64,000 nucleotides of DNA, taken from assembly GCF_000193375.1 (NCBI RefSeq), contig NC_015315.1, positions 938,622 to 1,002,621 of the forward strand, in the 5' to 3' direction. Each line of letters begins with the position of its first letter. Positions within the stretch are counted from its first letter, which is position 1. The notes beneath the pieces are model-generated. The model did not search any database and was not told where the DNA came from. It saw only the letters and a program-made list of their open reading frames with translations. The position numbers were made by a program, and so were the translations under genes. Source of the DNA: Thermoproteus uzoniensis 768-20 (GTDB lineage Archaea; Thermoproteota; Thermoprotei; Thermoproteales; Thermoproteaceae). This document shows positions 900-61,746 of this stretch, one piece after another.

Positions 900-1292
900 T
901 TATGTATTTGCCGCCGGCTGGGCATATGCGGAGTGGCAACCTCTGAGGACCGCCGAGACTACGATCGTGTCGTTTCCGGGCAGATATAGCCCCCTCACGA
1001 CGACCACAGACTCGAAGCTGGACGGCGTGACGGGGCCGTAGAGGGCGTACAGCGTGGTCTTGTTTATCAACGCCGTCACGGCAAATCCGTTATCTCCGAC
1101 AAGCCGCAATACGACGTATTTAGAGCCTATGTCCACGGCCGCCACCTTGCCGGACACGGTGACGTAGGCCGGCTCCTTGATCTGCGCCAGCCGCGAGACG
1201 TCCAATATACCCGCGTTGGATATGAGCGCCAGCAACGCGCCAGCGAGCGCCAACGCAGCAATGGCCGCCGCCGAGACGGCCTTAAAGTTCAT
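900..1292 (-). CDS. ccmE: CcmE-type haem chaperone (archaeal CXXXY variant)
   Basis: A 130-residue membrane-anchored OB-fold protein that in System I cytochrome c maturation carries haem covalently outside the membrane. An N-terminal signal anchor spans about residues 5-27. The OB-fold follows, with the segment PAYVTVSGKVAAVD and the VVVRGLYLP strand. The C-terminal haem-attachment motif is C119-H-S-A-Y123, that is CXXXY rather than the bacterial HXXXY. The CXXXY form is known from archaea and a few bacteria that also lack CcmH. It overlaps the end of ccmC by 11 nt, so the two are translated from one message. No ccmH, ccmG, ccmD or ccmI is visible here, in line with the variant system. Confidence 0.85.
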   Translation of the reverse strand: MNFKAVSAAAIAALALAGALLALISNAGILDVSRLAQIKEPAYVTVSGKVAAVDIGSKYVVLRLVGDNGFAVTALINKTTLYALYGPVTPSSFESVVVVRGLYLPGNDTIVVSAVLRGCHSAYAQPAANT

Positions 1293-2235
1293 GCCGCCCC
1301 GACACGGACAGCGCCAGTATCGCGGCGCCGGCTATCAACACGTTGACGGCCACGGACCAATGGACGACGATGGCGCCGTTGGGAGCAACCAGATGGCCTA
1401 CTAAGGTCGACGTCCCGTTGACGAAAAGAGGCCTTAGATCCACCCTAGACAGCGGCACCGAGAGGACGCCCCCGGAGGTGTTCATGACCACGACGTTCCC
1501 CGCCAAACTGGCTCCGTACACGACGTAGACGGGCTGTAGGTACTGGGCGCCTATCACCGCGGCTACAGACGCGGCGATTGCGAGCGATAGGTAGGCGATC
1601 GGCTTGGGCACTCTGGCGCCCGCTATATACAGAGCGAGTAGGGATAGGGCCAGCGCCATGGAGACGTCTAACAGCCTGGCGATCGGCTCACCTAGGGCCT
1701 CGACTGCCGTGCCTGTCGCCGGGTGGAGGGCCGGGAATATCGACGGGGCTATCAGGACAACGGGCACCGACGCAAAGGCGACGGTCGCGTAGAACGCAGA
1801 TATGGACATTGACCTGTCAGGGTCCTCGACGGAGCGTTTGACGACGAGGTATATCGAGTACAGGACAGCCATGGCCAGAACAGACAGCTGGCGGGGATCG
1901 CCCGAGAATGCAGAGCCCCACGACGTCGCGGCCCAGGCCGTGCCGCCGACGAAGCTGGCCCACGAGAGGGCCGCCGCGGCCTTGGCGGATCTGTCCAACA
2001 ACGCGAAGTACCGGGCCTTCTTCTTCCCCAGATATATCAGGCCGAAGAGGAACGCGAGGAGGCCGGACAAGAGCGCGGCGGTGGACAGAGGGACGTGGAC
2101 GTAGATGCTCCTATACGCCGTGGAATCTCCTAGAGGCACCAGGGCGGGGAAGGGGCCGGCGAGCGCGGCCCAGCCCGACAACGAGACGAAGGCCAGCGCT
2201 AGGGCCGACGCTGTGTAGTCCTTGAGCGAGGCCAT
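1282..2235 (-). CDS. ccmC: CcmC-like haem delivery membrane protein
   Basis: A 317-residue protein with about eight hydrophobic segments, of the haem-handling CcmC/CcmF/CcsA superfamily; CcmC loads haem onto CcmE. The conserved first His is in YVHVP (H47) and a second in LHPATG after the signature loop. The tryptophan-rich WWD loop is degenerate: residues 106-115 read WGSAFSGDPR where bacterial CcmC has several Trp. I chose the ATG at 2235 because a TATA-like box (2255-2264, read leftward) fits its spacing; an upstream start at 2256 would add seven residues and sit in the promoter. It overlaps ccmE and is transcribed divergently from ccmF. Confidence 0.8.
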   Translation of the reverse strand: MASLKDYTASALALAFVSLSGWAALAGPFPALVPLGDSTAYRSIYVHVPLSTAALLSGLLAFLFGLIYLGKKKARYFALLDRSAKAAAALSWASFVGGTAWAATSWGSAFSGDPRQLSVLAMAVLYSIYLVVKRSVEDPDRSMSISAFYATVAFASVPVVLIAPSIFPALHPATGTAVEALGEPIARLLDVSMALALSLLALYIAGARVPKPIAYLSLAIAASVAAVIGAQYLQPVYVVYGASLAGNVVVMNTSGGVLSVPLSRVDLRPLFVNGTSTLVGHLVAPNGAIVVHWSVAVNVLIAGAAILALSVSGRHEL

Positions 2236-2242
2236 GCCATAG

Positions 2243-2264
2243 TTTTTAACTTCCAATAAAAATT
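2243..2264. promoter_or_regulatory. Divergent promoter pair of the ccm locus
   Basis: Only 36 bp separate the ccmC start (2235) and the ccmF start (2272). The rightward TATA-like box TTTTTAAC (2243-2250) serves ccmF and the leftward box (2255-2264, read AATTTTTATT) serves ccmC. Each box lies about 25-28 nt before its start codon, so the two core promoters overlap. The two half-operons are probably controlled together. Confidence 0.6.
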
Positions 2265-2271
2265 TACTTCT

Positions 2272-4395
2272 ATGAAGCCTATATTGGCAACAATTAGTAA
2301 CAGATACTTCCCGGCCGCCGCAGGCGCGTCCGCAGCAGCGGTTTGGGCTTACTACCTGGCCCAGTTCGCGGCGCTGAATTTCGGGCTACTGGACGTCTAC
2401 GCAAATACGTCCCTCGGGATGCCGCTGTACTACCGGCTCGCGGCCTCGCTGGCCAACGTGGGCGGCGTCCTGCTCTACATCGGCGCCGTGCTCGGCATCC
2501 TCGGCGCCGCGTCCCGCAACGCCCGTCTATCCGCGGCGGCCTTAGGCTACGCCGCGTTGGCTGTGGCCGTCGGCGCCTTCGCCCGCACCGACTTGGCGCC
2601 GCCGGGGATAGGCCTCAACCCCCTGCTCAGGAGCCCGTGGGCCCTCCCCCACCCCCTCGCCGTCCTGACGGGCTATGCTCTGCTAATAGCGGCGGTGGCC
2701 GACCCTAGGCTGCGCGATCTCTACGTCAAGGCCGCTTGGACCTCGTTGAGTCTGGGCCTCCTCCTCGGGGCCTACTGGTCCTACACCACATTCGGCTGGG
2801 GCGGATACTGGGAGTGGGACCCCGTCGAGACGGGCATATTCCTGACTTGGCTGTTGGCGCTGGCCAGAATCCACTGGAGGTCCGACGGCCCGCTGTACGC
2901 CGCGGCGGGCGCCGAGCTGTTGACCATGGCCATAACCTACGGAGGCGTCTCGCCTCTCCACTCCTTCGTGGGGATCTCCGACGTGAGCCTGGGCCTGGCG
3001 GCGGCATCCGCCGCGTTCCTGGCACTATCCGTGCAGTCGGCCTTGAGGCGGGCACCGGACGGCTTGGTCCAGGCAGGGGGAGCGCTGATGTACGGGGCCG
3101 GGCTCTACGTCTACGCTACCCTGCTGGCCCCCATGGCCGCGCGCCTATTCGGCTTACAGGCGTCCGTGCCCTCCGGCAACTCGGCTATCGGCATATACCA
3201 CGCCGTGCTCGTGCCTGCCACAGCCGCTGTGCTGGTCGGCATCACGTGGCGGTGGCTGGGGAGGCAGGCCGCCCTATTGTGGACCGCCGTATCTATCGCG
3301 GCGGGCGCGGCGCTCAGCCTGGCCCATCCGTGGTCGCCAGCAAGCTCCGCCGCGTCTAACATAGCCATATACGCCTTGGTCTTCCTGTCGGCCGGAGCCC
3401 TAGTAGCCTCGGCGGCCGCCGCAAGGGAAAGAGGGCCGCTCCTAGCCGCCGTGCACGCCTCCTTCGCTGTGCTGGTCGCCGCGATAGCCCTAAGCGCCCC
3501 TTACGCCTACCATATGTCCTATTCCGAGTTCTTCGAGGCGAAGCCCGGACAGATGTACCTCGTGAAGATCGGCAACGAAATAGCGCCGTTTTCTCTATCG
3601 GTGGCGGGCGCGTCGGGCCCTAGAGAGCTGGTGTCTATCCCGCCCTACTTGGCCCGGTACATCTCCGGCGACATCGCGACGGCGGCTGGGGCGGCTACCG
3701 CTCTGAGGAGCCGGCTCCGCTTCGAGCTCGTCTACCTCAACGGGACACCCTACGTCGTCGCGTTCGGCGACTTGGCCGACGGGCCGCACTACGTGGGCGG
3801 GGTGCCTCTATACGTCTACAACGTGACCCGTACCCCGTACGGCGATCTCGTCGTGGGGCTGGTCGACCTCGGCGGCGCCGCGGTGGAGTTGCCGGGCCCG
3901 CTGGGCGTGTTGAGCGGGCTGCTGGCGTGTCGGCCCAACGCGACCACTTACAACTCCTACGACATATACCTCCGGGTATACGTCGGCGGGCGCGAGGCGA
4001 CCGCCGTCGTGAAGTACGACGCGTCCGGCGAGCTGAAGCTCATTAGAGGGCTGGTCCCGGGCGTCGCGCTCGTGGGGGACTGGCTCGACGACTACTACGT
4101 CGCAGTGAGCCCCGGCGGCCTGGCCTACGACAACGCGGTGTTCCCCTACCCGTTGCTTCAGCTGGCCAAGTACGATCTGCGCAGTTGCCTCCCCCTAGGC
4201 GCCGCCGCGTTGTTGTCCGCCTACTTCGGCGCGCCTCTGAACTCCACCCAGATCGATTCGCTACTGGCGGCCAACGCCGTTGCGGACAGCTACGTTGTTA
4301 TGGTGAAGAAGGTGCCCCTCGTCAACCTGGTCTGGGCTTCCGGCTCCGCGCTGGTGGCCCTCTCGGCCCTGTCGCTATGGCGCCGCCGGGCGTAG
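2272..4395 (+). CDS. ccmF: CcmF-like cytochrome c haem lyase subunit
   Basis: A 707-residue multi-pass membrane protein. The WWD motif WGGYWEWDPVETG (residues 176-188) is intact. The preceding conserved His segment is LPHPLAVLTGY (H127). About a dozen membrane spans are followed by a large loop domain at about 415-680 facing outside, then a last span. In System I, CcmF joins haem from CcmE to the CXXCH cysteines of apocytochrome c. CcmH is not seen, so this protein may act alone or with an unknown partner. The 3' end overlaps the start of ccmA by 19 nt. A TATA box 25-29 nt upstream indicates a leaderless mRNA. Confidence 0.87.
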   Translation: MKPILATISNRYFPAAAGASAAAVWAYYLAQFAALNFGLLDVYANTSLGMPLYYRLAASLANVGGVLLYIGAVLGILGAASRNARLSAAALGYAALAVAVGAFARTDLAPPGIGLNPLLRSPWALPHPLAVLTGYALLIAAVADPRLRDLYVKAAWTSLSLGLLLGAYWSYTTFGWGGYWEWDPVETGIFLTWLLALARIHWRSDGPLYAAAGAELLTMAITYGGVSPLHSFVGISDVSLGLAAASAAFLALSVQSALRRAPDGLVQAGGALMYGAGLYVYATLLAPMAARLFGLQASVPSGNSAIGIYHAVLVPATAAVLVGITWRWLGRQAALLWTAVSIAAGAALSLAHPWSPASSAASNIAIYALVFLSAGALVASAAAARERGPLLAAVHASFAVLVAAIALSAPYAYHMSYSEFFEAKPGQMYLVKIGNEIAPFSLSVAGASGPRELVSIPPYLARYISGDIATAAGAATALRSRLRFELVYLNGTPYVVAFGDLADGPHYVGGVPLYVYNVTRTPYGDLVVGLVDLGGAAVELPGPLGVLSGLLACRPNATTYNSYDIYLRVYVGGREATAVVKYDASGELKLIRGLVPGVALVGDWLDDYYVAVSPGGLAYDNAVFPYPLLQLAKYDLRSCLPLGAAALLSAYFGAPLNSTQIDSLLAANAVADSYVVMVKKVPLVNLVWASGSALVALSALSLWRRRA

Positions 4396-4970
4396 AGCTA
4401 CGCGACGTCTGGAAGAGGTACAGGTCCTGGGTGTTGAGGGGCGTGACGCTGGAGGTGTCGGGGAGAGTCTTGGTCTGGGGCCCCAACGGCTCGGGCAAAT
4501 CGACCTTGATAAGGATCGCCGCCGGGCTCACGCCGCCCAGCCGAGGGGAGGTCCTCGCGAGGACTAGGCCGGGCGTCGCCCTGCAGTCCAGCTTCCTGCA
4601 CCCCGACCTAACCCTCGAGGAGAATCTGAAGTTCTTCGCGAAGGCCGTCGGCTGCGGGCTGATCGAGCCCGCGTTTAGGCTGGGCCTAGGGCCCTACATG
4701 GGGCGCCGCGTCTCCGAGCTGAGCTTCGGCTGGCGCCGGAGGGCCGACCTAGCCGCCGCTCTGCTGTGCGAGCCGGACGTCCTACTGCTGGACGAGCCTT
4801 TGTTGGGGCTCGACGCCTCCGGGGCGGCCGCCGTCGTCGAGGCCGTCCTCGGCCACGGCGGCGACGCGTTGATCACGGCGTCTGATCCCTGCAGATACTC
4901 CTCGATGAGGTTCGACGCAGTCTACACGCTGAGGGACGGGAAGCTGGTCGAGGAGGAGGCCCCATGTTGA
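4377..4970 (+). CDS. ccmA: CcmA-type ABC transporter ATPase
   Basis: A 197-residue ATP-binding subunit of the CcmAB(C) complex that releases holo-CcmE. Walker A is GPNGSGKST (residues 35-43), a Q-loop lies in VALQSSFLHPDLT, and Walker B is VLLLDEPLLGLDA. The signature motif is degenerate (ELSFGWRRR in place of LSGGQ). I start at the ATG at 4377, inside the 3' end of ccmF, because residues upstream in this frame are only an out-of-frame copy of ccmF. It overlaps ccmB by 7 nt. At about 200 residues it has the short length typical of CcmA. Confidence 0.83.
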   Translation: MAPPGVELRDVWKRYRSWVLRGVTLEVSGRVLVWGPNGSGKSTLIRIAAGLTPPSRGEVLARTRPGVALQSSFLHPDLTLEENLKFFAKAVGCGLIEPAFRLGLGPYMGRRVSELSFGWRRRADLAAALLCEPDVLLLDEPLLGLDASGAAAVVEAVLGHGGDALITASDPCRYSSMRFDAVYTLRDGKLVEEEAPC

Positions 4971-5524
4971 TATACATAGAGAGGGAGCTGAAGCTCCTCT
5001 TGAGGGACGCGGGGTCCATAGCCGCCGTCGTGTTGTTGGCCTTCGCAGTGGCGGCCGCGTTCTCCGGGTCGAGCTACTGGAGGGGGCTAGTGGCCAACAC
5101 CTTGATCGCCTCGCCGGTGATCGGGTACATTTCGGTCATACGCGAGGAGGAGGCGGGCACTCTGGACGGGCTCAGGCTTCTGGCCAGCAGGCGCAAGGTC
5201 TTGGCGGCTAAGCTGACGGCGTCGCTGGTTGTCGTGGCCTTATCCAACGCGGCCTACACGGCGGCGCATATGCTGATAGGCGGAGGCCCCGCGGACCCGC
5301 TTGCGTTGGCCGTGGCGACCTATTACGGGGCCGTCGTATCGACCATATCGGCCGCCGTCGCGCTCGGCGCCCGGGCGAGGCCCATGCTAACGGCGGTGGT
5401 GAGCTCCGGGCTGTATCTGGGTTTCGCGCTCGCGTACGCCGACGGCCCCGACGCGCCCGCCTCGGCCGCCGCATCGGCTGTCCTGACCGCCATACTCCTC
5501 TCGTTCGGCGACGAGGTGCTCTAG
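4964..5524 (+). CDS. ccmB: CcmB-like ABC transporter permease
   Basis: A 186-residue membrane protein with about six hydrophobic segments, beginning with the ERELKLLLRD cytoplasmic stretch common to CcmB and related ABC-2 permeases. The REEEAGTLDGL segment after the second span matches the coupling region of CcmB. It overlaps ccmA and closes the ccmF-ccmA-ccmB operon. Identification rests on position as well as sequence; alone it would only be called an ABC-2-type permease. Confidence 0.75.
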   Translation: MLIYIERELKLLLRDAGSIAAVVLLAFAVAAAFSGSSYWRGLVANTLIASPVIGYISVIREEEAGTLDGLRLLASRRKVLAAKLTASLVVVALSNAAYTAAHMLIGGGPADPLALAVATYYGAVVSTISAAVALGARARPMLTAVVSSGLYLGFALAYADGPDAPASAAASAVLTAILLSFGDEVL

Positions 5525-7948: not shown

Positions 7949-9127
7949 TTAGGGGGCCATATCGCCGCAAGCCAATACCGGCGGGTATAAGTCGGTGTAG
8001 TTGTACTCTATATTGGGTTTGACAAACCGCTCGATTGCCTTAGCCGTCGCGGAGTCCACGAAGATGACCGTGTGCGGGTACGCCATATGGGTCTTGTACT
8101 CCGCCACAACCTTGAGGGTGTCGACGTCTAGAACGTAGACGGAGCGTCCCAATATGTCCGTAACGTACACCTCGCTACAGTCCGGGTTGGCGAACACGCC
8201 CCAGGGGGCCTTGCCGAGCTTCAATACGGCTATGGGCTTGAGCCCAGGCGCCTGGAGGACGTACACGGAGCCCTCCATCGGCGAGGTGGCGAACAGCTTC
8301 CCGCGGCAGACGGCGAGGCCCGGCAAGCCGGGCGGAGGGGCTGACGTGGGGAAGTACGCGAGGACTTGGCCGCGCGAGTTCATCTCCACCAGCAAAGACA
8401 TGGCGTCTATGTCGACCGGCGAAAGCCTATAGCCGGGCTCTATCGGGTGGCCCTCGCCGTATATGTATACGCCGTCGGTGGTCAACATGTGGAACGAGAG
8501 AAAGACGTACCGCAGAGCCTCGTGGGAGTTGACGTAGGGAGGCCAGAAGGCCAGCACGGGCACTCTCAGTGACCTGCCCCCGACCATCACCACTAGGTAC
8601 GGCTCGCGCATCAGCGGCGCCACGACGTCGCCGTTGAGGTATATCGGCGCGTGTGGGTAGAGGCCGACGGGGACGCACTTCCCCAGAACCTCGTTGTAGA
8701 GATCCAGCGGGCATAGATAGCCCTTCCTGTCCCCGAAGTCGGAGACCGCGAGCCACAACACGCCGCCCTCCACAGGCGCTACGTCGGGGGAGTAGTACAG
8801 GAAGTGGCTCACGTTGCCCGGCGCCTCTATTATCGCCGAGGGGCGGCTCAAGTCGCCCAATTCGTATATGTATATCCACCGCCCCACCTCCGGCGTCGTC
8901 ACCACCAGCCGTCCGCCCCAGAGGAAGCCGTCGTACATGGTGAAGTTGGGCAACGCGCCGTTGAGCGCAACGCCGCCGACGTACTTCCCGTCCACGTATA
9001 GCTCTAGGCTGGGCGGGCCGCCGCCCAGGATCACGAACGTGTCGGGCTTGTCGGGCCGACCCAAGAGCGACGAGGCCAGGGCTACTAGGGACAGCGCGAG
9101 GGCGATTGGCAAAAGCCAACGGGACAT
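7949..9127 (-). CDS. Secreted or membrane-anchored beta-propeller protein
   Basis: A 392-residue exported protein: signal peptide or anchor at residues about 4-22, then repeated four-strand blades. The C-terminal part has YncE-like blades (VYVLQAPGLKPIAVLKLGKAPWGVFA, then EVYVTDILGRSVYVLDVDTLKVVAEY). The Cys in CPLDLYNEVLGKC could form a disulfide. It is the last gene of the TusA-DsrE-YeeE operon, with its ATG overlapping the YeeE stop by 1 nt. Position suggests an extracytoplasmic role in sulfur uptake or oxidation; substrate unknown. Confidence 0.65.
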   Translation of the reverse strand: MSRWLLPIALALSLVALASSLLGRPDKPDTFVILGGGPPSLELYVDGKYVGGVALNGALPNFTMYDGFLWGGRLVVTTPEVGRWIYIYELGDLSRPSAIIEAPGNVSHFLYYSPDVAPVEGGVLWLAVSDFGDRKGYLCPLDLYNEVLGKCVPVGLYPHAPIYLNGDVVAPLMREPYLVVMVGGRSLRVPVLAFWPPYVNSHEALRYVFLSFHMLTTDGVYIYGEGHPIEPGYRLSPVDIDAMSLLVEMNSRGQVLAYFPTSAPPPGLPGLAVCRGKLFATSPMEGSVYVLQAPGLKPIAVLKLGKAPWGVFANPDCSEVYVTDILGRSVYVLDVDTLKVVAEYKTHMAYPHTVIFVDSATAKAIERFVKPNIEYNYTDLYPPVLACGDMAP

Positions 9128-10380
9128 TACCTGAGCTTGACGGCGCGCAGGAGGCCTAGCCTTATTGTGGGGGCCGCCGCCAGGCGGCGCAGAGTCCCGT
9201 CGCGCCAGCTGCCCACCAAGCCTATGAACAACGCCACGGAGTAGGCGGCGGCCGCGCCGGCCGCCAGATTGCCGCCGAAGAGATCTTGAAAGCGCAGGAC
9301 CGGGCTCAGGTATATGGACGTCGTGAAGAAGAAGGGCCAGACGTACGACAGGACCACCATGCCGGAGACCATGCCGAACCAGGCTATCAAGTGGGGTATG
9401 CTGCCCTCCCCGCTCCTGTAGGCGCTACTGAAGCTACAGCCTGCCACCAACACCATGCCGATCCCGAACAAGGCCCCTCCGACAAACGTGTGCGCGCCTA
9501 CCGGGAACAGAAACTCCCTGTACTGCCACCCCAGGCCGTATTTCAGTATCAGGTTTCCAGTTATCATTATAGACAGCGCTATGGCCACCGCCCTGGCGTT
9601 GCCGCCGTACGGCGCCAGCCGCGACCAGAAGCCGTCCCTCAACATCGAGGTGAAGCATATCTCGCCCTTAGAGCCGGCGAAGCCGTAGCCTATCCCAAGC
9701 AATAGAAACGCTATGGCGGTCACGACTCCCAGCAGCCACCAGTATAGAGCAGTTACGAGCGTCATGGCCAAGGCGAATACCAGGACCTTGCGGTTGTCCA
9801 CGCGGTTGCCCAGCTCTATCCTTATCGGCTTGGATCTGCCCATTAGGCCCATCAGATATTCCTCTATCAGCTTGGTCCCTATAAAGCTGCCGACCACCAT
9901 CCCCAAGAAGAACACAAAGCCGGAGAACACGAGGCTCTGGATAGTCGCCACGAAGTTGCCTATGTTGCAACCCAACGCCAGCCTGGCGCCGAAGCCCAAC
10001 ATGAGGCCTCCGACGACCGACAAGACCACCGTGGCGCGGTTCGCCGGCCATCTGAGCCGCCACTGGCCCTCCAGCGCCTTGGCTATCATCGCGCCTAGCA
10101 TGAAGCCCCACACTATCATGAACTCCTTATTCCTCGGGTCCCAAGGAGGCGCCGCCGGCGCGACGAACATGGGCGAGTTGGGGTTGAAGTAGGCCCACTG
10201 GCCCGTCTTGAGGAGCCCTCCGCTCAAGACGTTGTACAGCCAGCCTCCGAACTGGTTTTCGGGCCCCGTGATGTACCAAGGACTCCTCACCACGATTATC
10301 TGCAACACGGCTATGACGCCTATCACGGCGCCGGCGATCTCGGGCTTCCAGGGCTTTTTCAAGAAGTCGGGGACCCCCAT
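9127..10380 (-). CDS. YeeE/YedE-family sulfur transporter
   Basis: A 417-residue membrane protein with two homologous halves and about 10-12 spans. Characteristic Cys-containing loops are ALGCNIG (C138), GEICFTS (C242) and VAGCSFSSAYRSGEGS (C315). The family imports thiosulfate or other sulfur species, or in other species is linked to selenium. It follows the DsrE gene by only 2 nt and precedes the propeller gene. The order TusA-DsrE-YeeE indicates that imported sulfur passes to the cytoplasmic carriers. Confidence 0.85.
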   Translation of the reverse strand: MGVPDFLKKPWKPEIAGAVIGVIAVLQIIVVRSPWYITGPENQFGGWLYNVLSGGLLKTGQWAYFNPNSPMFVAPAAPPWDPRNKEFMIVWGFMLGAMIAKALEGQWRLRWPANRATVVLSVVGGLMLGFGARLALGCNIGNFVATIQSLVFSGFVFFLGMVVGSFIGTKLIEEYLMGLMGRSKPIRIELGNRVDNRKVLVFALAMTLVTALYWWLLGVVTAIAFLLLGIGYGFAGSKGEICFTSMLRDGFWSRLAPYGGNARAVAIALSIMITGNLILKYGLGWQYREFLFPVGAHTFVGGALFGIGMVLVAGCSFSSAYRSGEGSIPHLIAWFGMVSGMVVLSYVWPFFFTTSIYLSPVLRFQDLFGGNLAAGAAAAYSVALFIGLVGSWRDGTLRRLAAAPTIRLGLLRAVKLR

Positions 10381-10382
10381 AC

Positions 10383-10757
10383 TCAGAACGTGACGATCCT
10401 CCCGTCCCCCACCTCCTCGAGGAAGGTGTACATGGAGGACACCGCGTCGACCAGCCCCAGCGCCTTGTAGTCGTCCTCAGATACGCCGAAGATCCTCCCC
10501 GCCGTCTCGCACGCTATGATCTTCAGCCCCATGGGCTTCGCCGCGGCGAACAGCTCCTGCCACGTCACGTGTAGCTCCCTCATCGTCTTGAGCTCCGGCG
10601 ACTCGGGCCAGTTGCTCCGCCCGGCCAAGGCCAGCACCGCTCTGCCCGTGGCGAAGACAAGGACCTCGTTGCCTCTCGCCAGCTCTGTAGCTATGTACGT
10701 GCCGGCTTCGTAGAGCTTTACGGGATCCTCAGACGTTATTATCACGCCTACCTTCAT
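10383..10757 (-). CDS. DsrE-family sulfur relay protein
   Basis: A 124-residue protein of the DsrE/DsrF/TusD fold. Family features are the N-terminal KVGVIITSEDP strand, VLVFATGRAVLAL, and the conserved Cys in IIACETAGRIFGV (C83), expected to carry a persulfide. It ends with a short hydrophobic IVTF strand. It lies 1 nt downstream of tusA and 2 nt upstream of the YeeE gene. It closely resembles the DsrE-like gene at 61408, suggesting paralogues. Confidence 0.8.
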   Translation of the reverse strand: MKVGVIITSEDPVKLYEAGTYIATELARGNEVLVFATGRAVLALAGRSNWPESPELKTMRELHVTWQELFAAAKPMGLKIIACETAGRIFGVSEDDYKALGLVDAVSSMYTFLEEVGDGRIVTF

Positions 10758-10758
10758 A

Positions 10759-11004
10759 CTATAGAACTATGGTTATCTCCCACACGCCTCCCTTGGCGTC
10801 CACCGACACCGACTTGGCGCCCGCCTTCTGGGCCACGGACTTTATGTTCTCTATAGACGGCGGGTTGTCTATTATGACCCTCAACGTGCTGCCCTTCGGC
10901 AACTTCGACAAGGCCTGCGACGTGTACATCTGTGGATACGGGCAGACGTAGCCCTTGAGATCCAGCTCGTAGGAGTTGTCCCCGGTCCTCCTAATCGAAG
11001 GCAT
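10759..11004 (-). CDS. tusA: TusA-family sulfur carrier protein
   Basis: An 81-residue sulfur carrier with the intact motif GYVCPYP (C21). The second half is LRVIIDNPPSIENIKSVAQKAGAKSV, typical of TusA/SirA proteins. It passes persulfide sulfur between thiol proteins. It heads the operon TusA-DsrE-YeeE-propeller, with a TATA-like box (11021-11031, read leftward) about 27 nt before the ATG. Confidence 0.85.
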   Translation of the reverse strand: MPSIRRTGDNSYELDLKGYVCPYPQMYTSQALSKLPKGSTLRVIIDNPPSIENIKSVAQKAGAKSVSVDAKGGVWEITIVL

Positions 11005-11020
11005 GGGGGACGTCCGCCGA

Positions 11021-11078
11021 GTTAATAAAAGTCTTATTAATCATGTAAATGTTAACAGTATTAATAATGTTTTAAAAA
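11021..11078. promoter_or_regulatory. Divergent promoters of the two sulfur operons
   Basis: This 92-bp intergenic region (11005-11096) is A/T-rich. The leftward box CTTTTATTAAC (11021-11031) serves tusA and the rightward box GTTTTAAAAAAC (11069-11080) serves the propeller operon; both are 27-28 nt from their start codons. Between them lies an AT-rich stretch with the near-palindrome TTATTAATCATG, a possible regulator site. The arrangement suggests co-regulation of sulfur import and the exported operon. Confidence 0.5.
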
Positions 11079-11096
11079 ACGTGTAGCCCCGGGGCC

Positions 11097-12119
11097 ATGT
11101 CGGAGGAAATTCCCCTGGGCGCTCCCGAGGGAGGCGGCAGGCGCGTCTTGTTCCTTGCTTTGGGCATCGCCATAGGCCTCGCGGCCGGCGTCGGGCTGGG
11201 CTACTGGGCCAAATACCAGACTCTCCAGTACGCATACAGCCTCTTGTCGCAGTCGCAACCTCCGCCCATGGATATCTACCTCGTCGCGTATTCGCCCGGC
11301 CAGATGGCCATTCTGACGGCCGCAGGCACTCCCATACTCCAGCAACGTCTCGGCTTGACGGGGCATTTCAGCTACGCGGGTAGCTACGGGCCCTACTCGA
11401 TCTTCCTCTCAAACGGCACAATCTACGTGTTCAACGGGACCGAGGAGTACACTGAGCTCTACCTAAAGGGGGTCGAGAAGGGTGTGGTCGTGGGCAACAG
11501 CCTATACGTGGTGGCCGCCGGCGGCGTCTACAAGCTCTCGTTGCCCGACCTATCGAATGAGGGCTTCCTCGCCGTCAAGGACGCCGACGATATCTACGCG
11601 ATACCCGGCGAGGGCGTCCTCTACGTCCTCACGCCGAACAGCCTCGTGGAGCTGGACGGTGCTCTGCGGCCGTTGGCCATATACGACGTGGGCGGCGATA
11701 GGGTGTTCGTGGGCGCCTACTACCTCTTCATCGCCAACGGCGCGTCCGTGACCTCCTACAGCCGGACGACCTTGGATAGGCTGGCCTCGACGAGCTTGGC
11801 GGGGACTGTCAGGGACATGAGGGCCTGCCGCGGGGTGTTGCTCGTGGCGACCAGCAGAGGGCTCTACGCCTTGAGCGTGCCCGGGCTCTCCGAGCTCAAG
11901 TTCCTCAACGTGACCGGCAACGAGCTGGAGGCCGACCCCTCGTGCACTGTCGTTTACCTAGCGGGGGACCACAGGCTCTACGCGATAACTGTGCCGTCGC
12001 TGTCGATTAGCTCGGCCGACCTCCCCGCGCCGCTCGACGGCTTGGAGATCCGCGCCGGCGCCTTGACCGCACAGCCGGCCTCGGCGCCGCGCCAGATAGC
12101 GCTGGCGTGCGGAGGGTAG
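11097..12119 (+). CDS. Membrane-anchored beta-propeller protein 1
   Basis: A 340-residue protein: short cytoplasmic tail rich in Gly and acidic residues, one membrane span (about residues 19-38, VLFLALGIAIGLAAGVGLGY), then an extracellular domain of short repeated strands (GTIYVFNGTEEYTELYL, NSLYVVAAGGVYKLSLPDLS, GEGVLYVLTPNSLVELD) as in beta-propellers. Three Cys near the C terminus could make a disulfide. It starts a four-gene operon in which all downstream starts overlap or abut. No enzyme motif is visible; a scaffold or ligand-binding role is inferred only. Confidence 0.65.
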   Translation: MSEEIPLGAPEGGGRRVLFLALGIAIGLAAGVGLGYWAKYQTLQYAYSLLSQSQPPPMDIYLVAYSPGQMAILTAAGTPILQQRLGLTGHFSYAGSYGPYSIFLSNGTIYVFNGTEEYTELYLKGVEKGVVVGNSLYVVAAGGVYKLSLPDLSNEGFLAVKDADDIYAIPGEGVLYVLTPNSLVELDGALRPLAIYDVGGDRVFVGAYYLFIANGASVTSYSRTTLDRLASTSLAGTVRDMRACRGVLLVATSRGLYALSVPGLSELKFLNVTGNELEADPSCTVVYLAGDHRLYAITVPSLSISSADLPAPLDGLEIRAGALTAQPASAPRQIALACGG

Positions 12120-12121
12120 CC

Positions 12122-13396
12122 ATGGACGCCAAGATCGCGGTAATAGTGGTCCTCCTCGCCGCGTTGGCGGCCCTGGCTGCGTTGTACCTGCAGGCGAGCT
12201 CCGCCGCCTCGTCTCTGTCGTCGCAACTGGCCGAGTCCAGACAGACAATAGCCCAGCTGAGGGCCAAGATATACCAGCTACAGTCCGAGATCGAGCAACT
12301 GAACCAGACTCTGGCCCTACGCAAATCGACCGCGCCGCCCTCCATAGCGCCGCGTGGGTACGTATACTCGTTGATTAAAAACAATGGCAACTATTATATA
12401 TATGTAATAGATCCTCTAAATAACAATATAGTTGCTGTCGTGGATCTGAGGCGGGCATTAGATCTAGAGACCTATTCGCTACTATCGTCGGCTAAGGTGG
12501 TGGAGTCTTGGATTCCGCGCTATTATGTGCCTGACACTCCATATCTATTCTTATTGTTCGAAGGCCTTAACGGCTCCTACGTCCTGATACTGAACAGGTC
12601 CGACCTCAGCGAGGTGAAGCTGATCAAGACCTCTAACAGCTTCACTAGGCAATACGCCGGGATTACGCCCGACGGCAGATATCTGCTGATAGCCCAGCGC
12701 GCGCCCAGAGATCTTGTAGTGATAGATCTCTCCGCCCTCGAGATAGCCGACACTATCCCTCTGGCCGCAGACCCCTGCGACGTCGCGCCGTCGCCCGACG
12801 GGAGGTACGTGCTCATGCCGCTGAGAGCCGACAAGAACGCCAGCCTGCCGGAGCTGGCCTTGGTCATGTCAGTACCCTCGGGAAGGGCTGTGGCCACCTA
12901 CTATCTAAAACAGCCGGGCCAGGCCGAGTCCCTCGAACCTTCGATGACCTACTGGCCCTTCCGGAGCCCCGGCTACGGCCTGCTACAGTTTGAGGGGGGC
13001 CCGAGGGAGGTTGTGCTCAGCATAAACGCGACCGGGGGCGCGCTGGCCCCGGTGAAGGAGGTCACTTATCCCTCAGTCGCATTCATGGCTGTGGAGGATC
13101 CGGCGGAGCCCTTGGTCGTCGTGGTTGTGTCGGGCTTCGGCTTATATGTGCGGTCGGAGCCTCCGTCGTACGGCGTTTTAGACAGGGTGGAGCTGGTGCC
13201 CAGATACCTGAAGTCGGCCGTCATGGGAGTCTTTAGCCAGGACGGGCGCTTCTTCTACGTGGCGGGCCCCGGCGGGCTGGTGGTGGTAAACGCCTCTTCG
13301 TGGTCGGTGGCGAAGTACATAAGGGCGGACTCGGCCGTGTGGGTTCTCGCCGTGCCGGGCGGCGACTGGCTCGCGTCGGCGCAATACAGAAGATGA
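12122..13396 (+). CDS. Membrane-anchored coiled-coil and beta-propeller protein 2
   Basis: A 424-residue protein: one N-terminal span (about residues 4-22), a coiled coil (about 25-62, with QTIAQLRAKIYQLQSEIEQLNQTL), then YncE-type propeller blades such as AGITPDGRYLLIAQRAP and DVAPSPDGRYVLMPL. The ATG at 12122 is preferred over the GTG at 12107 because GGAGG lies 7 nt upstream and the first gene ends just before. The stop overlaps the next ATG. Bases 12360-12560 are noticeably more AT-rich than the rest, a local composition shift inside the gene. Confidence 0.65.
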   Translation: MDAKIAVIVVLLAALAALAALYLQASSAASSLSSQLAESRQTIAQLRAKIYQLQSEIEQLNQTLALRKSTAPPSIAPRGYVYSLIKNNGNYYIYVIDPLNNNIVAVVDLRRALDLETYSLLSSAKVVESWIPRYYVPDTPYLFLLFEGLNGSYVLILNRSDLSEVKLIKTSNSFTRQYAGITPDGRYLLIAQRAPRDLVVIDLSALEIADTIPLAADPCDVAPSPDGRYVLMPLRADKNASLPELALVMSVPSGRAVATYYLKQPGQAESLEPSMTYWPFRSPGYGLLQFEGGPREVVLSINATGGALAPVKEVTYPSVAFMAVEDPAEPLVVVVVSGFGLYVRSEPPSYGVLDRVELVPRYLKSAVMGVFSQDGRFFYVAGPGGLVVVNASSWSVAKYIRADSAVWVLAVPGGDWLASAQYRR

Positions 13397-14142
13397 TAGA
13401 AATCCCCCTCGTTTTCGCGTCGGCCTATCTCCTGTCTCTGTCCCTCCTCTCGCGCGCCAGGCTCGGCCCCCGCTCGGCCGCAGTCGCGGGAGGGATCTCC
13501 GCGCACATGGCGCTCTTGGCGGGCCACTACGCCGCCGAGGTGCCCAAGTCGCTCGCCGAGGTCAAGCCGGTCTTCCTCGTGCCCATGTTCGCCTACGCCA
13601 CCTTGGTGACCTCCGCGGCCTTTATAGCCTCGATTAAGGCGGCGGTCGATAAGAGAAGCGCGACTGCCGACGCGCTGGTCGCGGGCCTGGCCGTGTTCAA
13701 CGTTCCGTTGGGCCTATCTGTAGCGAACGGCGCGGCGTCGCTGACGCCGTACGCAGACCCGGCGCTCTTGTCCATAGGGGCCGCCGCCCTAGGCCTCGTC
13801 GAGGCGTTCGCCCTAAGCGCAGTCGCCTCAGCGTCGAGACGGATCACGCCGCTGTGGCCGACGCCGCCAGCGGCCTTCTTCGCCGGGTGCTACCTATACG
13901 GCGTGCTTCCCCCCATGTTGACCGACATATACCCTAAGCTCGTGGCGGCCACCGCGTACGCCGCGGCGGCGCCGTTGATACTATACAGCATGTTCAAGAA
14001 CAACATAGCCGCATCTGCGGCCCTCGGAGGCCTTACGTCCTTCAGATTTTGGGCCGCCGTATTCGCAGGCGTCATGGCCTTCGCCGCGGCGGAAATACCG
14101 TTGTTGCTCTACAACCCCCAGATGCACGCGTTGCTCGGATGA
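13393..14142 (+). CDS. Multi-pass membrane protein of sulfur operon
   Basis: A 249-residue hydrophobic protein with seven or eight predicted membrane spans and no soluble domain. The ATG at 13393 overlaps the previous stop (ATGA) and its own stop overlaps the next ATG, so all are translationally coupled. Two His in SAHMALLAGHYAAE (residues about 38-50) could be haem or quinone-site ligands, by inference only. It is reminiscent of NrfD-like membrane subunits in size and context, but I cannot confirm that family. Confidence 0.6.
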   Translation: MIEIPLVFASAYLLSLSLLSRARLGPRSAAVAGGISAHMALLAGHYAAEVPKSLAEVKPVFLVPMFAYATLVTSAAFIASIKAAVDKRSATADALVAGLAVFNVPLGLSVANGAASLTPYADPALLSIGAAALGLVEAFALSAVASASRRITPLWPTPPAAFFAGCYLYGVLPPMLTDIYPKLVAATAYAAAAPLILYSMFKNNIAASAALGGLTSFRFWAAVFAGVMAFAAAEIPLLLYNPQMHALLG

Positions 14143-15347
14143 GGCGGCGGGACTTCCTCAAGTTCCTGTCTGCGCTGGCCGCGGCCGCCGCGGGCGGGTT
14201 CATAGCCGGCTGGAGCCTCCTCAAGCCCCGCGTGGAGAAGGCGGACGTGGTGGTGGTCGGCGGCGGCGTGGCCGGCTCAGTCGTGGCGTACCTCCTACGC
14301 AGAAACGGCGTGAGGGCCGTCGTGCTCGACAAGGGCGGCGTCTATATCGTTGGGCCGGCCAAAGAGGACGTAGTGCTCGGCATGGCGCAGCCCGGCCAAT
14401 ACGCAGTAGGGCCGTCGGGCTTAGCTGGCGGAGAGGTCTTCGCCGTGGATCCCGCGAACAGGCTCGTCTACTCGACGGCGGGAGTGTACGAGTACCGCTA
14501 CCTCGTGCTGGCCCCCGGGGTGCACCTAGCCTATAACCTGGTCAAGATATCGGGGAGGCCCAACTTCATCAACATATACGATACGCCCAACGTTCTGTCC
14601 AACGCCGGCCGTCTCGCCTCGGCGAAGGGCCGCGTCGTGATCTCGCATCCCGGCCTCCCCTATAGGTGCACTTCCGCCCCCTACGAGCTTGCGTTTCTGC
14701 TCAAATGGCTTAGGCCCGAGGCGCAGATCACCGTCGTGTCCGGCGTCAAGTACGTGCCCGCCGACTTCTCGGACCAGCTATCGGCGCTGGGCGGCGCGAT
14801 CTACAAGTTGCTCGACGAGCGGGGCATAGGCTTTGTCGGAGGCCGAGAGGTCGTCGAGGTCGCGGAGGGCCACGTGGTGTTGGACGACGGCGAGGCGTTG
14901 GCCTACGACTGGCTCGTGTGGACGCCGCCGCACGTAGGTCCGCCGTGGCTTATAGACGCCGGCCTGGCCGACGAGTCGCACAAGGGCTATGTCGAGGTCG
15001 ATTCGAGGTTCCGAGCCTTGGGCTGGGACGACGTGTACGCTGTCGGCGACGCGACGTGGCACGTGGTGAAGACCGGCTGGGCGGCCTACTACGAGGCCGT
15101 GCACGCCGCCTATTACCTCCTAGAGGACATGGGCCTACCGCCGTCCTCTCCGCCCCCACCCTACTTCTACAGCGAGGACGAGGTGCGGCTCTCGCGGGAC
15201 GTGGCCGTGAGGGGCGCCAAGATGTGGCGGCCCTTCTACGGCCCCGTCGTCTGGCGCGCCGACTACGGGGCATCCCCCGAATGGGCTGTGGTCAAGTACG
15301 ACTGGATGTCCCGCATGAAATATCTCTTGTCGCTGATAAGGAAATAG
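14139..15347 (+). CDS. Tat-exported FAD oxidoreductase (flavocytochrome c / SQR-like)
   Basis: A 402-residue flavoprotein. Residues 1-24 hold a twin-arginine signal (MRRRDFLKFL then a hydrophobic Ala/Gly stretch). The FAD-binding GGGVAG motif follows at about 41-46, and DDVYAVGDATW near residue 310 is the second FAD motif. The segment GLPYRCTSAPYEL aligns with the Cys region of sulfide:quinone oxidoreductases and flavocytochrome c sulfide dehydrogenase. That is the only Cys in the protein, whereas active SQR/FCSD use at least two. It is thus an exported relative with uncertain substrate. It ends the four-gene propeller operon. Confidence 0.75.
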   Translation: MRRRDFLKFLSALAAAAAGGFIAGWSLLKPRVEKADVVVVGGGVAGSVVAYLLRRNGVRAVVLDKGGVYIVGPAKEDVVLGMAQPGQYAVGPSGLAGGEVFAVDPANRLVYSTAGVYEYRYLVLAPGVHLAYNLVKISGRPNFINIYDTPNVLSNAGRLASAKGRVVISHPGLPYRCTSAPYELAFLLKWLRPEAQITVVSGVKYVPADFSDQLSALGGAIYKLLDERGIGFVGGREVVEVAEGHVVLDDGEALAYDWLVWTPPHVGPPWLIDAGLADESHKGYVEVDSRFRALGWDDVYAVGDATWHVVKTGWAAYYEAVHAAYYLLEDMGLPPSSPPPPYFYSEDEVRLSRDVAVRGAKMWRPFYGPVVWRADYGASPEWAVVKYDWMSRMKYLLSLIRK

Positions 15348-15394: not shown

Positions 15395-15414
15395 GGCCTC
15401 ACTTGGGCGGATCC

Positions 15415-16557
15415 ATGAAGTCCATAGTGGTCGTCGGAGGCGGCGTCGGCGGCCTTTTCACAGCCAACAAACTGGCTTCCAAGCTCTCTGCCGAGTTAAG
15501 GAGGGGGGAGGTCTCGCTGACTGTGGTGGAGCCGCAGGAACAGCAGGTCTACCAGCCGGGCTTCCTCTACGTGCCGTTTAAGGAGCTCGGGCCCGACGTC
15601 ATGTTCAGGAGGGTGGACAGACTGGTCTCCCCCTTGATCCGCTTGGAGAGGGAGCCGGCCGCGAGGATAGATATGGCGAACAAGAAGGTCGTCCTGCAGT
15701 CCGGCCGGGAGCTCAAGTACGACTACTTAGTGGCAGCCACGGGCTCCGTCGTCAAGACAGAGGCGTTCCCGGGCTTCGGCGAGGTCTGGCACACTCTCTG
15801 GACGTACGAGGGCGCCAAGAGGCTGAGGGAGGCCCTCAGGAAGTTCAACGGAGGCACCATAGCCGTGTCCGTCACGTCGACGCCCTATAAATGCCCGGTG
15901 GCCCCCTACGAGTTCCTCGGCCTCCTAAACGACTACCTCATGGCGACCGGTCTCAGGGCGAAGACGAAGGTCGTCTTCACGACAGTCGCGCCGCACCTGC
16001 ACGCGCAACCGCAGGTCAACAAGTTCTTGGAGGAGGCGCTGAGTATGTGGGGGTTCGAGTACAGGGTCAACTTCAAGATAAACGCGGTGGAGCCGGGCAA
16101 GCTGTCGGGCCCGGAGGAGATAAAGGCCGACTTGATAATCGCCGTGCCGCCCCACGGCGGCGCCAAGGTGGTGGTTGAGTCGGGCATAGTCGACCAGGCG
16201 GGCTGGATACCCGTCGACAAGAACACCCTGCAGATACAGGCGCAGGTCGCCACCGGGGCCGAATACGCCTTGGGCGACGCCACCAACTTGCCGGTCCCCA
16301 AGGCGGGCGCTGTGGCCCACTTCCAGAGCGAGGTGGTCGCCTCCCGCATAGCGGAGGAGATCCAGCTGGGCCACTCAGACACGACCTACGACGGCCGCGT
16401 CATCTGCTTCATACTGACCGGGTTCGAGGAGGCGACCCAGGTCTCCTGGAACTACGAGAACCCGGCCAAACGCCCGCCGCCGCCCAGCCGCTTCTTCGTG
16501 CGGCTTAAGGACATGACGAACTACTCTATATGGTCGGTCATGAGGTGCGGGCTATGA
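15415..16557 (+). CDS. sqr: Sulfide:quinone oxidoreductase family protein 1
   Basis: A 380-residue flavoprotein of the SQR/FCSD family that oxidises sulfide and passes electrons to quinone at the membrane. The FAD motif GGGVGGLF is at about residues 8-15, VEPQEQQVYQPGFLYVPF follows, and EYALGDATN is the second FAD-binding motif. Redox-active Cys candidates are in YKCPVAPYEF and GRVICFILTG. The C terminus (RRFFVRLKDMTNYSIW-like) is amphipathic, as expected for membrane docking. The stop overlaps the next ATG (ATGA), coupling it to a DUF1641 gene. Confidence 0.85.
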   Translation: MKSIVVVGGGVGGLFTANKLASKLSAELRRGEVSLTVVEPQEQQVYQPGFLYVPFKELGPDVMFRRVDRLVSPLIRLEREPAARIDMANKKVVLQSGRELKYDYLVAATGSVVKTEAFPGFGEVWHTLWTYEGAKRLREALRKFNGGTIAVSVTSTPYKCPVAPYEFLGLLNDYLMATGLRAKTKVVFTTVAPHLHAQPQVNKFLEEALSMWGFEYRVNFKINAVEPGKLSGPEEIKADLIIAVPPHGGAKVVVESGIVDQAGWIPVDKNTLQIQAQVATGAEYALGDATNLPVPKAGAVAHFQSEVVASRIAEEIQLGHSDTTYDGRVICFILTGFEEATQVSWNYENPAKRPPPPSRFFVRLKDMTNYSIWSVMRCGL

Positions 16558-17009
16558 GCGAGGAGAAGTTCGAGAAGCTCGTGGCCCTCCTGCAACAGGA
16601 CAAGGCCTTGGACGCGTTGATATCGATCGTGGAGCGCCTAGACGTGGTGAAGGAGCTCGTAGACGTCTTGTTCGAGTTCAAGAGAAGCGGCGTCTTGGAC
16701 GATCTGCTGAACGCGGCCGCCTCCCTCCGCTTCTTCACCGAGGGCCTCCTCACGAGAGACTTCGTCGAGAAGCTCGCGAAGCTCCAGGAAGTGGCTCTCG
16801 TGGCCGGGACCAACCTCGCTACTGACAGCTCCAAGGTAGACTGCCTCACCTACGCCATAGCAAACGCGGACAATATAAAGCCGATGGGCCTCTGGGGCTT
16901 GCTCTCGGCCCTCCAAGACCCCGAGGTGAGGCGCGGCCTCGGCTATCTCGTGGCCGTCTTGAAGAAGCTAGGATCCTGCAGACATCTGGCCGAAGGGACC
17001 GGCAGATGA
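16554..17009 (+). CDS. DUF1641 protein paired with SQR 1
   Basis: A 151-residue, mostly helical protein of the DUF1641 type. Repeated amphipathic helices end in the family segment KPMGLWGLLSALQDPEVRRGLGYLVAVLKKLG. DUF1641 genes are commonly found next to sulfide:quinone oxidoreductase genes, and here the start overlaps the SQR stop. The biochemical role is unknown; a membrane-docking or assembly partner is an inference. It overlaps the next gene by 4 nt. Confidence 0.75.
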   Translation: MSEEKFEKLVALLQQDKALDALISIVERLDVVKELVDVLFEFKRSGVLDDLLNAAASLRFFTEGLLTRDFVEKLAKLQEVALVAGTNLATDSSKVDCLTYAIANADNIKPMGLWGLLSALQDPEVRRGLGYLVAVLKKLGSCRHLAEGTGR

Positions 17010-17515: not shown

Positions 17516-17930
17516 CCTGTTTTAGGTTCTCCTCCATGCAGCTGCCCATGGCCTTCAGCACGGTCAACATCACGCCCATGGCCTTCTGCACCTCGGGGTC
17601 GCTCATGGCCTTCACGAGGCCCCAGAAGCCGACCTTAGGCGCCCCGTTCTCGGCTATCTCCCTAAGCGCCTTGCTCGTGCAGACGACTCCGCCTTGCATG
17701 GCGGCGCCCATGGCGTTCAAGTCGGCCGCGTCCATTATGGACAGCATGGATATCAACGGGGCGGCGACCTTGAACACCTGTATATCGGCCATCAAGTTGG
17801 GCAACTTCTCCAGCACGATCTTTATCGGCAACAGGAGCGAGCTGAGCTCCTCCACCTCTTTCCTAAGCGCGTCCACCTCGGCCAGAAGCCGCTCGTAGTC
17901 GGCCTTGGGTATGGTCACGGTCTCGGTCAT
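17502..17930 (-). CDS. DUF1641 protein paired with SQR 2
   Basis: A 142-residue helical protein of the DUF1641 type. The N terminus is a coiled coil (YERLLAEVDALRKEVEELSSLL) and the C-terminal signature reads KVGFWGLVKAMSDPEVQKAMGVMLTVLKAMG, parallel to that of the other DUF1641 protein. Two Cys are present (VVCTS and GSCME). The ATG at 17930 overlaps the stop of the second SQR gene by 4 nt. A longer upstream frame only shadows SQR and is ignored. Confidence 0.78.
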   Translation of the reverse strand: MTETVTIPKADYERLLAEVDALRKEVEELSSLLLPIKIVLEKLPNLMADIQVFKVAAPLISMLSIMDAADLNAMGAAMQGGVVCTSKALREIAENGAPKVGFWGLVKAMSDPEVQKAMGVMLTVLKAMGSCMEENLKQVSEK

Positions 17931-19087
17931 GGCACCACCCCGAGGAGCCAGTTGAAGTACACCTTCTCGAACATCTCCTTGAATATCCTCGACACGGGCG
18001 ACGGCGGGAGGAACATGCAGTCTGGGTACGGCTTCTGCTTCTTGACGAACTGGGTGAAGTCGCAGGCGGCGGCCATGCCGTATGCCCCAACGTCGAGAGC
18101 GCACGTGCCCACTATCCTGAACGGCGGCTTGCCCATGGAGATTCCGGCCAAGTCGGCCACTATGTTGCTGACGACCCACGGGGCGTAGCTGTGCAGTATC
18201 GTGCCGGCCATGCCCACCGGCACATTGGGGGCTACCACGTCGCCTACCACGTAGACGTCGTCGTACTTCTCGCTCCTGAAATCGCCGTTGGCCGGTGAGC
18301 GCGGCGCCGCCCAGCCGTTCTTGGCGAGGTCGCTGTTGAGCACGGGGTCGGGGGCCTTGTGCGGAGGCACCACTAGCGCTACGTCGAACTTTATCTTCTC
18401 CCCCGTAGCGGTCTCCAGCTCGTTCTTGCCCAAGCTCTTGATGGCTTGGCTCTGCCCGACGCCCACGTACTCGATCCCCAGCTGTTGCAGGAAGTTGGTC
18501 ATCCATTTGGCCGCCACGGGGCCGAAGTTCTCGAAGGGGCGCTTCAGCGGGTGGACCACCGTTATCTTCACCTTGTCCCTAAGCCCCCTCGTGAGGTAGT
18601 AGAAATGCGTCAACATGGCGAGCTCTATGGGCGCAGGCGGGCACCTGTACGGCAACGAGTAGACGCCGATGACTACGTGGCCCTGCCTCACTTGGCTCAA
18701 GGCCTCCGCGACCTTCAGCGAAGGCTCCAGCTCCCAAGTATGGGGGAAGCCGGTGTCCACCGTCTCGGCGCCGAGCGCCACCACGAGGTCGTCGTAGGTG
18801 AAGTCGCCCGCGGTAGTGGAGACCTTTCTGTTGGCCGGATCTATCTTGGTGACCCTAGCCTTGACGAAGTTCACATTGCGGCGTTTTAGATACTCCAGAG
18901 GCACACTGATCTGTTCGGGCCTCCTGTAGCCGAAGGCCACGTAGAGATACGACGGGCGGAACTCGGTCCTGTCCTTCATATCGACGACGGTTATCTCCAC
19001 GTCGCCGGGCCCCAACACCTCGCGCACCTCCTTCGATATTATCAACCCGCCGGTGCCGCCGCCTAGGATCAGCAGTTTTTTGGCCAT
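17927..19087 (-). CDS. sqr: Sulfide:quinone oxidoreductase family protein 2
   Basis: A 386-residue SQR-type flavoprotein. FAD motif GGGTGGLI at residues 9-16, SYLYVAFGYR, and DDVYVVGDVVAPNVP as second FAD motif. Cys in YRCPPAPIEL, GTCALD, AACDF and PDCMF give more candidate redox Cys than SQR 1. The C-terminal stretch SRIFKEMFEKVYFNWLLG is an amphipathic helix for membrane binding. A TATA-like box (19106-19114, read leftward) lies about 27 nt before the ATG. It forms an operon with the DUF1641 gene and faces the first SQR operon tail to tail. Confidence 0.87.
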   Translation of the reverse strand: MAKKLLILGGGTGGLIISKEVREVLGPGDVEITVVDMKDRTEFRPSYLYVAFGYRRPEQISVPLEYLKRRNVNFVKARVTKIDPANRKVSTTAGDFTYDDLVVALGAETVDTGFPHTWELEPSLKVAEALSQVRQGHVVIGVYSLPYRCPPAPIELAMLTHFYYLTRGLRDKVKITVVHPLKRPFENFGPVAAKWMTNFLQQLGIEYVGVGQSQAIKSLGKNELETATGEKIKFDVALVVPPHKAPDPVLNSDLAKNGWAAPRSPANGDFRSEKYDDVYVVGDVVAPNVPVGMAGTILHSYAPWVVSNIVADLAGISMGKPPFRIVGTCALDVGAYGMAAACDFTQFVKKQKPYPDCMFLPPSPVSRIFKEMFEKVYFNWLLGVVP

Positions 19088-61743: not shown

Positions 61744-61746
61744 CGC

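Follow-up and report, generated by a model that had tools for sequence, protein, structure and literature searches.

A conserved eight-gene module of Thermoproteus uzoniensis with a predicted role in sulfur oxidation outside the cell and sulfur import

The 64,000-nucleotide stretch of the Thermoproteus uzoniensis 768-20 genome considered here (positions 938622-1002621 of a single contig of 1,936,063 bases, hereafter the window) contains a module of eight genes, arranged in two divergent operons, that is inherited as one unit and whose products probably work together. The module may oxidise a reduced sulfur compound on the outer face of the membrane and import the resulting sulfane sulfur, a reading to which a probability of roughly one half is assigned. 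The plus-strand operon (11097-15347) encodes prop1, a predicted membrane-anchored propeller-like protein (11097-12119, 340 residues), prop2, a predicted membrane-anchored beta-propeller with a coiled-coil stalk (12122-13396, 424 residues), the multi-pass membrane protein MEM (13393-14142, 249 residues), and TatFAD, a flavin adenine dinucleotide oxidoreductase with predicted export by twin-arginine translocation (Tat) (14139-15347, 402 residues). Prop1 and prop2 are separated by 2 bp, while prop2 and MEM, as well as MEM and TatFAD, overlap by 4 bp. The minus-strand operon (11004-7949) encodes TusA (10759-11004, 81 residues), a DsrE-like sulfurtransferase (10383-10757, 124 residues), a YeeE/YedE-type sulfur transporter (9127-10380, 417 residues), and prop3, a predicted exported or anchored beta-propeller (7949-9127, 392 residues). 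Exactly 92 bp (11005-11096) lie between the operons and form the divergent control region. This gene order, with its coordinates and shared gap, agrees in full with that given in an earlier note on this DNA (the original prediction). The exported topology of the module proteins is predicted from signal sequences and simple hydropathy, which gives one N-terminal hydrophobic stretch in each of the three propellers and six stretches in the extended open reading frame (ORF) of MEM.

The evidence that both operons form one unit comes from their distribution and gene order, compared across samples of 45 genomes of the order, 398 of the phylum, and 19 of the family. Among the genomes of the order, strong matches to TatFAD and MEM outside the genome of the window are found in G027, G028, G029, and G032 only. 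G032 is Pyrobaculum oguniense TE7, whereas the other three are presumably P. aerophilum, P. calidifontis, and Pyrobaculum sp. 1860. Prop3 (at an E of 1e-20 or lower) and prop1 (at 1e-5 or lower) occur in the identical five of the 398 phylum genomes, and YeeE and prop2 in the identical five of the 19 family genomes. TatFAD at E up to 1e-45 is found in six of the 398; the orthologs of the five module genomes all fall below 1e-180, and the sixth match is a paralog at 2.7e-48. Neither prop1 nor prop3 is found in the other five genomes of the genus of the window, two of which are incomplete. In the four further family genomes all eight genes are clustered within about 8 kb, with identities to the proteins of the window from 32% (MEM in G028) to 87% (TusA in G027). 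Three arrangements exist across the five genomes: prop3-YeeE-DsrE-TusA facing prop1-prop2-MEM-TatFAD in the window, G027, and G029; prop3-YeeE-prop1 facing TusA-DsrE-prop2-MEM-TatFAD in P. oguniense; and, in G028, prop3-MEM-TatFAD followed by DsrE-TusA facing prop1-prop2-YeeE. In every one of the five genomes TusA and prop1 point away from each other, though their partners switch between operons. Because of this partner swapping and the identical distribution, the eight genes are regarded as one unit, and two independent operons adjacent by coincidence are very unlikely; the single physiological unit proposed in the original prediction is thus strongly supported.

The control region contains AT-rich, TATA-like elements on both flanks and a central palindrome, GTTAAC, which is also found in the orthologous divergent regions (four of the five in all). 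GTTAAC is rare in the window (three in 64 kb), and the count of GTTAACA in the whole window (4 vs. 2.0 expected) is not significant. Only the placement of the palindrome in four of five divergent regions is suggestive, and it may be considered a candidate operator. Since the G028 copy has diverged furthest in each of the proteins compared, the copy of the window may have been transferred between genera. A wide or viral origin was rejected, as a scan of genome contigs with two short patterns found P. oguniense only and a scan of viral contigs found nothing. Prop3 was not found in plasmids, and the MEM-TatFAD DNA produced a single plasmid match by blastn, 94 bases long, which is regarded as a chance hit.

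TatFAD carries a Tat signal (19.6 bits vs. the NCBIfam cut-off of 16.7) and the two-dinucleotide-binding fold Pyr_redox_2 (65.3 bits vs. the Pfam cut-off of 26.1), and the solved structures closest to it are flavoproteins of flavocytochrome c sulfide dehydrogenase (FCSD; 5n1t, E 9e-23; 1fcd, E 1e-21). It resembles FccB and SQR in keeping the first redox Cys: the invariant C177, within LPYRCTSAPYE, aligns with the residue that we take to be Cys161 of FCSD. Unlike in FCSD, the Cys of LNTCYS in 1fcd (presumably Cys337) lies opposite E346 of an invariant YSED in all five TatFAD orthologs. Since the second redox Cys is replaced by E346, the alignment indicates that the two-cysteine chemistry of FCSD is not possible within one TatFAD chain, and TatFAD was rejected as an ordinary SQR or FCSD, so the assignment to the SQR/FCSD type has to be revised. 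A further difference is that the module encodes no cytochrome subunit; a mono-heme protein lies upstream together with bc1 genes. The second Cys is kept in seven of 15 aligned paralogs of TatFAD, the other eight (the L002/L083 subfamily) being single-Cys proteins, and its loss may predate the export of TatFAD. The single-Cys SQR-like flavoproteins closest to TatFAD are located at L105:9038-10246, in the genome of the window, and at L106:8221-9399, in G042; we take their neighbours to be cobalamin synthesis genes. Moreover, a conserved 108-residue protein, which contains a YCTCP motif and belongs to no Pfam family, adjoins TatFAD in G027 and G029 (L053:9190-9516 and L054:11488-11814), and was not seen beside TatFAD in the window.

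The three propellers have odd and constant numbers of Cys residues, namely three in prop1, one in prop2 (the invariant C219), and five in prop3 (all invariant), a regularity that counts in favour of the sulfur-oxidation reading. The last Cys of prop1 belongs to an invariant C-terminal ACGG (ALACGG), while prop3 ends in CGDxxP(S), which reads ACGDMAP in the window. A blade that carries a pair of Cys residues (CRG...CSxVY) is common to prop1 and prop3 (hhalign probability 84%, E 7.4e-6), whereas a profile comparison of prop3 with prop2 gave no match. If these pairs are disulfides, the tail cysteines of both proteins would be unpaired. The C terminus of SoxY is a GGCGG tail, and prop1 appears to resemble SoxY in its C-terminal Cys followed by GG in all five orthologs. 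Unlike SoxY, prop1 shows no SoxY homology and no Pfam family at E up to 1, the SoxY domain included. Prop1 has no sequence relative in the PDB either (best E 0.17, a coatomer), and its AlphaFold2 model (predicted local distance difference test score, pLDDT, 58.8; predicted template modelling score, pTM, 0.49) is propeller-like, matching BamB and WD40 propellers in Foldseek with low template modelling scores. The propeller fold of prop2 is based on sub-threshold repeat matches, and that of prop3 on one repeat above cut-off (TIGR02276) and on an AlphaFold2 model of moderate confidence, built from a two-sequence alignment (pLDDT 61.8, pTM 0.67), in which the strands are consistent with a seven-bladed propeller closed by the N terminus.

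Prop3 also differs from the other two propellers in its His residues: six of the seven His in the protein of the window (H108, H159, H202, H213, H227, and H352) are invariant, compared with 36% of all residues, and the ortholog alignments of prop1 and prop2 contain no invariant His. As read from the strand list of the model, H108, H159, H213, and H352 would be situated at inner strands. A first Foldseek ranking of this model placed methylamine dehydrogenase and many other propellers on top; only in a second look, when the Foldseek candidates were re-ranked with VIA-align 2, did NosZ come first (Z 22.2, root-mean-square deviation (rmsd) 3.6, 293 residues), with thiocyanate dehydrogenase (TcDH) at Z 19.6 (rmsd 3.7, 300 residues). 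The scores of BtuG (Z 21.6, rmsd 3.0, 291 residues) and of a lactonase-type protein come within 1-2 Z of that of NosZ, and unrelated propellers reach 19-21; every one of these ranked structures is a propeller. A PDB search at E up to 1 gave no sequence match between prop3 and TcDH. The likeness of the modelled prop3 to copper propellers may serve as a lead for a metal site, not as proof. Prop3 was rejected as L-NosZ (24.2 bits vs. the NCBIfam cut-off of 700), and stronger sub-cut-off relatives of L-NosZ are encoded by other genes of G028 and G029.

No Pfam family matches MEM itself. Comparison by hhalign relates it to nine ZIP-like paralogs with a probability of 98.9% (E 2.7e-17), and five of the six of these paralogs that were scanned match Pfam Zip at 22-28 bits, short of its cut-off, the exception coming from G002; one matches NCBIfam ZupT at 36.6 bits, also below cut-off. 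Although MEM resembles ZIP metal transporters by alignment, the HNxxEG-type metal motifs of the fourth and fifth transmembrane segments, kept in all nine paralogs, are lost in all five MEM proteins, where H38 and H245 are kept throughout. MEM is a ZIP-derived protein, probably without metal at the usual site, and it was rejected as a working ZIP transporter.

The remaining proteins belong to known sulfur-handling families. TusA, with a CPYP motif, matches its Pfam family at 70.5 bits and the DsrE protein, with a conserved Cys in IIACETA, matches Pfam DsrE, both above cut-off. YeeE matches Sulf_transp with 137.4 bits (Pfam cut-off 27), and three of its Cys residues are invariant in the alignment of the five orthologs. 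The module resembles the TsuA/TsuB (YeeE/YeeD) system of thiosulfate uptake in combining a YeeE-type transporter with an adjacent TusA-like protein. Unlike TsuA, its YeeE stays below both TsuA-type NCBIfam equivalog cut-offs (86.5 bits vs. 400 and 55.5 vs. 645) and is coupled to a predicted exported redox complex. Together with the predicted topology, these families support the idea, put forward in the original prediction, of sulfur work on the outer face tied to uptake. Apart from the module, a second DsrE-TusA pair is located at 61408-61959 of the window, its DsrE being 41-49% identical to the module DsrE of the other genomes. In G042, a genome of the same genus without the module, a DsrE 67% identical to that of the module lies near a ZIP-like MEM paralog (L058:7277-9044), possibly a remnant or a precursor of the module link.

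The direction of electron flow is suggested by the respiratory context. Pfam COX3 in frames of 810-936 residues, the size of fused CoxAC, is found in seven of the 19 family genomes, comprising all five with the module and two of the 14 others (G043 and G044; Fisher p = 0.0018, uncorrected for relatedness), and a CcmF-type protein is found in nine, comprising the five module genomes and four of the 14 others (Fisher p = 0.011, likewise uncorrected). In the genome of the window, a mono-heme c protein, CoxAC, and genes that we take to encode cytochrome b and a Rieske protein (L117) lie about 5.8-11.5 kb before the window; this is the sole genome of the five with Cox genes near the module. Cytochrome c maturation genes, with CcmC- and CcmF-type genes and an ABC ATPase, are located at 900-5524 of the window and include ORFs, presumably CcmE- and CcmB-like, that have no Pfam match; the Pfam CcmE search found none in the 19 genomes, the window's own included, and is hence uninformative. 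In G028, an operon-like ccm-type set with two CXXCH proteins (six and three motifs) lies within about 13 kb of the module (L108:2937-13068), and a similar set with multiheme CXXCH proteins lies about 36 kb from it in G032 (L109:1272-14465). The part of PMC3512248 consulted reports fused CoxAC in P. calidifontis, P. oguniense, P. sp. 1860, P. aerophilum, and T. uzoniensis, which would be the same five genomes as those with the module if the species names given above are right. Similarly, cytochromes c are restricted within the Thermoproteales to T. uzoniensis and four to five of seven Pyrobaculum, according to an excerpt of PMC4429474.

Given the association of the module with the CoxAC-type oxidase and with genes for bc1 and ccm proteins, oxidation is the favoured direction. 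The substrate, which could be sulfide, polysulfide, thiosulfate, or a thiol, would be oxidised outside the cell by TatFAD, by the His-rich prop3 (probably an enzyme with copper or another metal), or by both. As TatFAD retains a single Cys of the FCSD redox pair, the second thiol is proposed to come in trans from the Cys tail of either prop1 (ACGG) or prop3 (CGD). These tails would act as swinging, SoxY-like carriers on which sulfane sulfur is held, while MEM, a ZIP fold without the metal site, and prop2 would provide the membrane scaffold. Electrons would pass through cytochrome c to the CoxAC-type oxidase and oxygen, and the sulfane sulfur would be transferred through YeeE, with its three Cys, to TusA and DsrE inside the cell.

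Several observations weigh against this reading. G043 and G044 have COX3, and four genomes have CcmF, without the module. The called ORFs of the window and of L053-L056 contain no CXXCH, the mark of a cytochrome c subunit. Moreover, the prop3 model falls below a pLDDT of 50 at 189-212 and 215-243, exactly around H202, H213, and H227. The closest paralogs of TatFAD, which make up eight of the 15, are also single-Cys proteins with no Tat signal noted, so single-Cys chemistry need not involve the propeller tails. Lastly, Thermoproteus species are known as sulfur reducers, so reduction is possible as well.

The module is followed on the plus strand by genes for a cytoplasmic SQR-like flavoprotein and a DUF1641 protein (15403-17009). 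In G027, the homologues of both (84% and 73% identity) are found some 2.5 kb away from TatFAD, and the pair is probably associated with the module and not part of its core. A further FCSD/SQR-like flavoprotein is encoded at 17927-19087 on the opposite strand to this pair. The adjoining SQR-like gene, the co-occurrence of the module with CoxAC, and a parts list that would be the same are all consistent with an unlikely alternative, in which sulfide or polysulfide is detoxified at the cell surface, sparing the oxidase from inhibition with no energy gain. A dedicated importer with TusA and DsrE suggests instead that use is made of the sulfur, and the module is missing from two genomes that have COX3. 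Somewhat less probable still is a role in assembly, in which prop3, MEM, and the Cys-tail propellers would deliver or mature a copper (or copper-sulfide) site of cytochrome oxidase or of prop3 itself, with YeeE moving sulfur for it. The six invariant His and the modelled NosZ-like fold of prop3 could be accounted for in this way, as could the co-occurrence with Cox, bc1, and ccm genes and their adjacency in the genome of the window. This role fits poorly with the loss of the ZIP metal motifs from MEM and with the presence of Cox near the module in only one of the five genomes, and to our knowledge TusA and DsrE, as cytoplasmic sulfur carriers, have no role in oxidase assembly. Reduction of polysulfide or sulfur outside by the exported flavoprotein complex, with import of the products by YeeE, is improbable in spite of the sulfur respiration of Thermoproteus species, as the module is missing from the other five genomes of the genus, of which two are incomplete, and occurs only in genomes that have a CoxAC-type oxidase. 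In favour of reduction, thiosulfate is an electron acceptor for T. uzoniensis, as stated in the available part of PMC3512248.

Oxidation outside the cell coupled to import is itself a known kind of sulfur metabolism. In the parts of PMC11582611 consulted, the YeeE-like SoxT imports sulfur for oxidation and transfer from SoxY is suggested; the Sox/SoxYZ system with SoxT1A of Hyphomicrobium denitrificans resembles the module as proposed here in its extracytoplasmic oxidation, Cys-held sulfur, YeeE-like importer, and TusA/DsrE-type carriers inside the cell. Unlike in Sox, propellers, a ZIP-derived membrane protein, and a Tat flavoprotein take the place of the Sox proteins. Likewise, in the TcDH clusters of Thioalkalivibrio the gene of a copper propeller is accompanied by fccAB and by a c-type cytochrome gene (excerpts of PMC5328954, PMC6504805, and PMC9456337). 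TcDH is exported and has seven blades, and export is likewise predicted for prop3, whose modelled fold may be similar; the excerpts of PMC5328954 and PMC9456337 mention no TusA-DsrE-YeeE set for TcDH. Both cases are best seen as parallels in logic, not homology.

The single parts of the module belong to known families, and their combination appears to be new. A search of open-licence PMC papers returned no description of this combination, of the Cys tails, of a single-Cys Tat flavoprotein, or of a dead ZIP, in line with the earlier statement that its author knew of no described system of this composition; the degenerate ZIP nature of MEM, the Cys tails, and the His cluster go beyond that statement. 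Moreover, the gene set is small and well delimited, it is distributed in step with the CoxAC-type oxidase, and its Cys tails, single-Cys flavoprotein, His-rich propeller, and dead ZIP lead to clear predictions that can be tested by single mutants and purified proteins. The most specific form of the proposal, regarded as tentative and rather doubtful, is an undescribed archaeal sulfur-oxidising membrane complex in which a copper-type propeller works with a single-Cys Tat flavoprotein that forms a trans disulfide with the Cys tail of another propeller and passes sulfane sulfur to the YeeE importer. If true, this trans-disulfide complex would be a functional analogue of Sox, FCSD, and SoxT built from unrelated parts, with a scaffold derived from a dead ZIP transporter.

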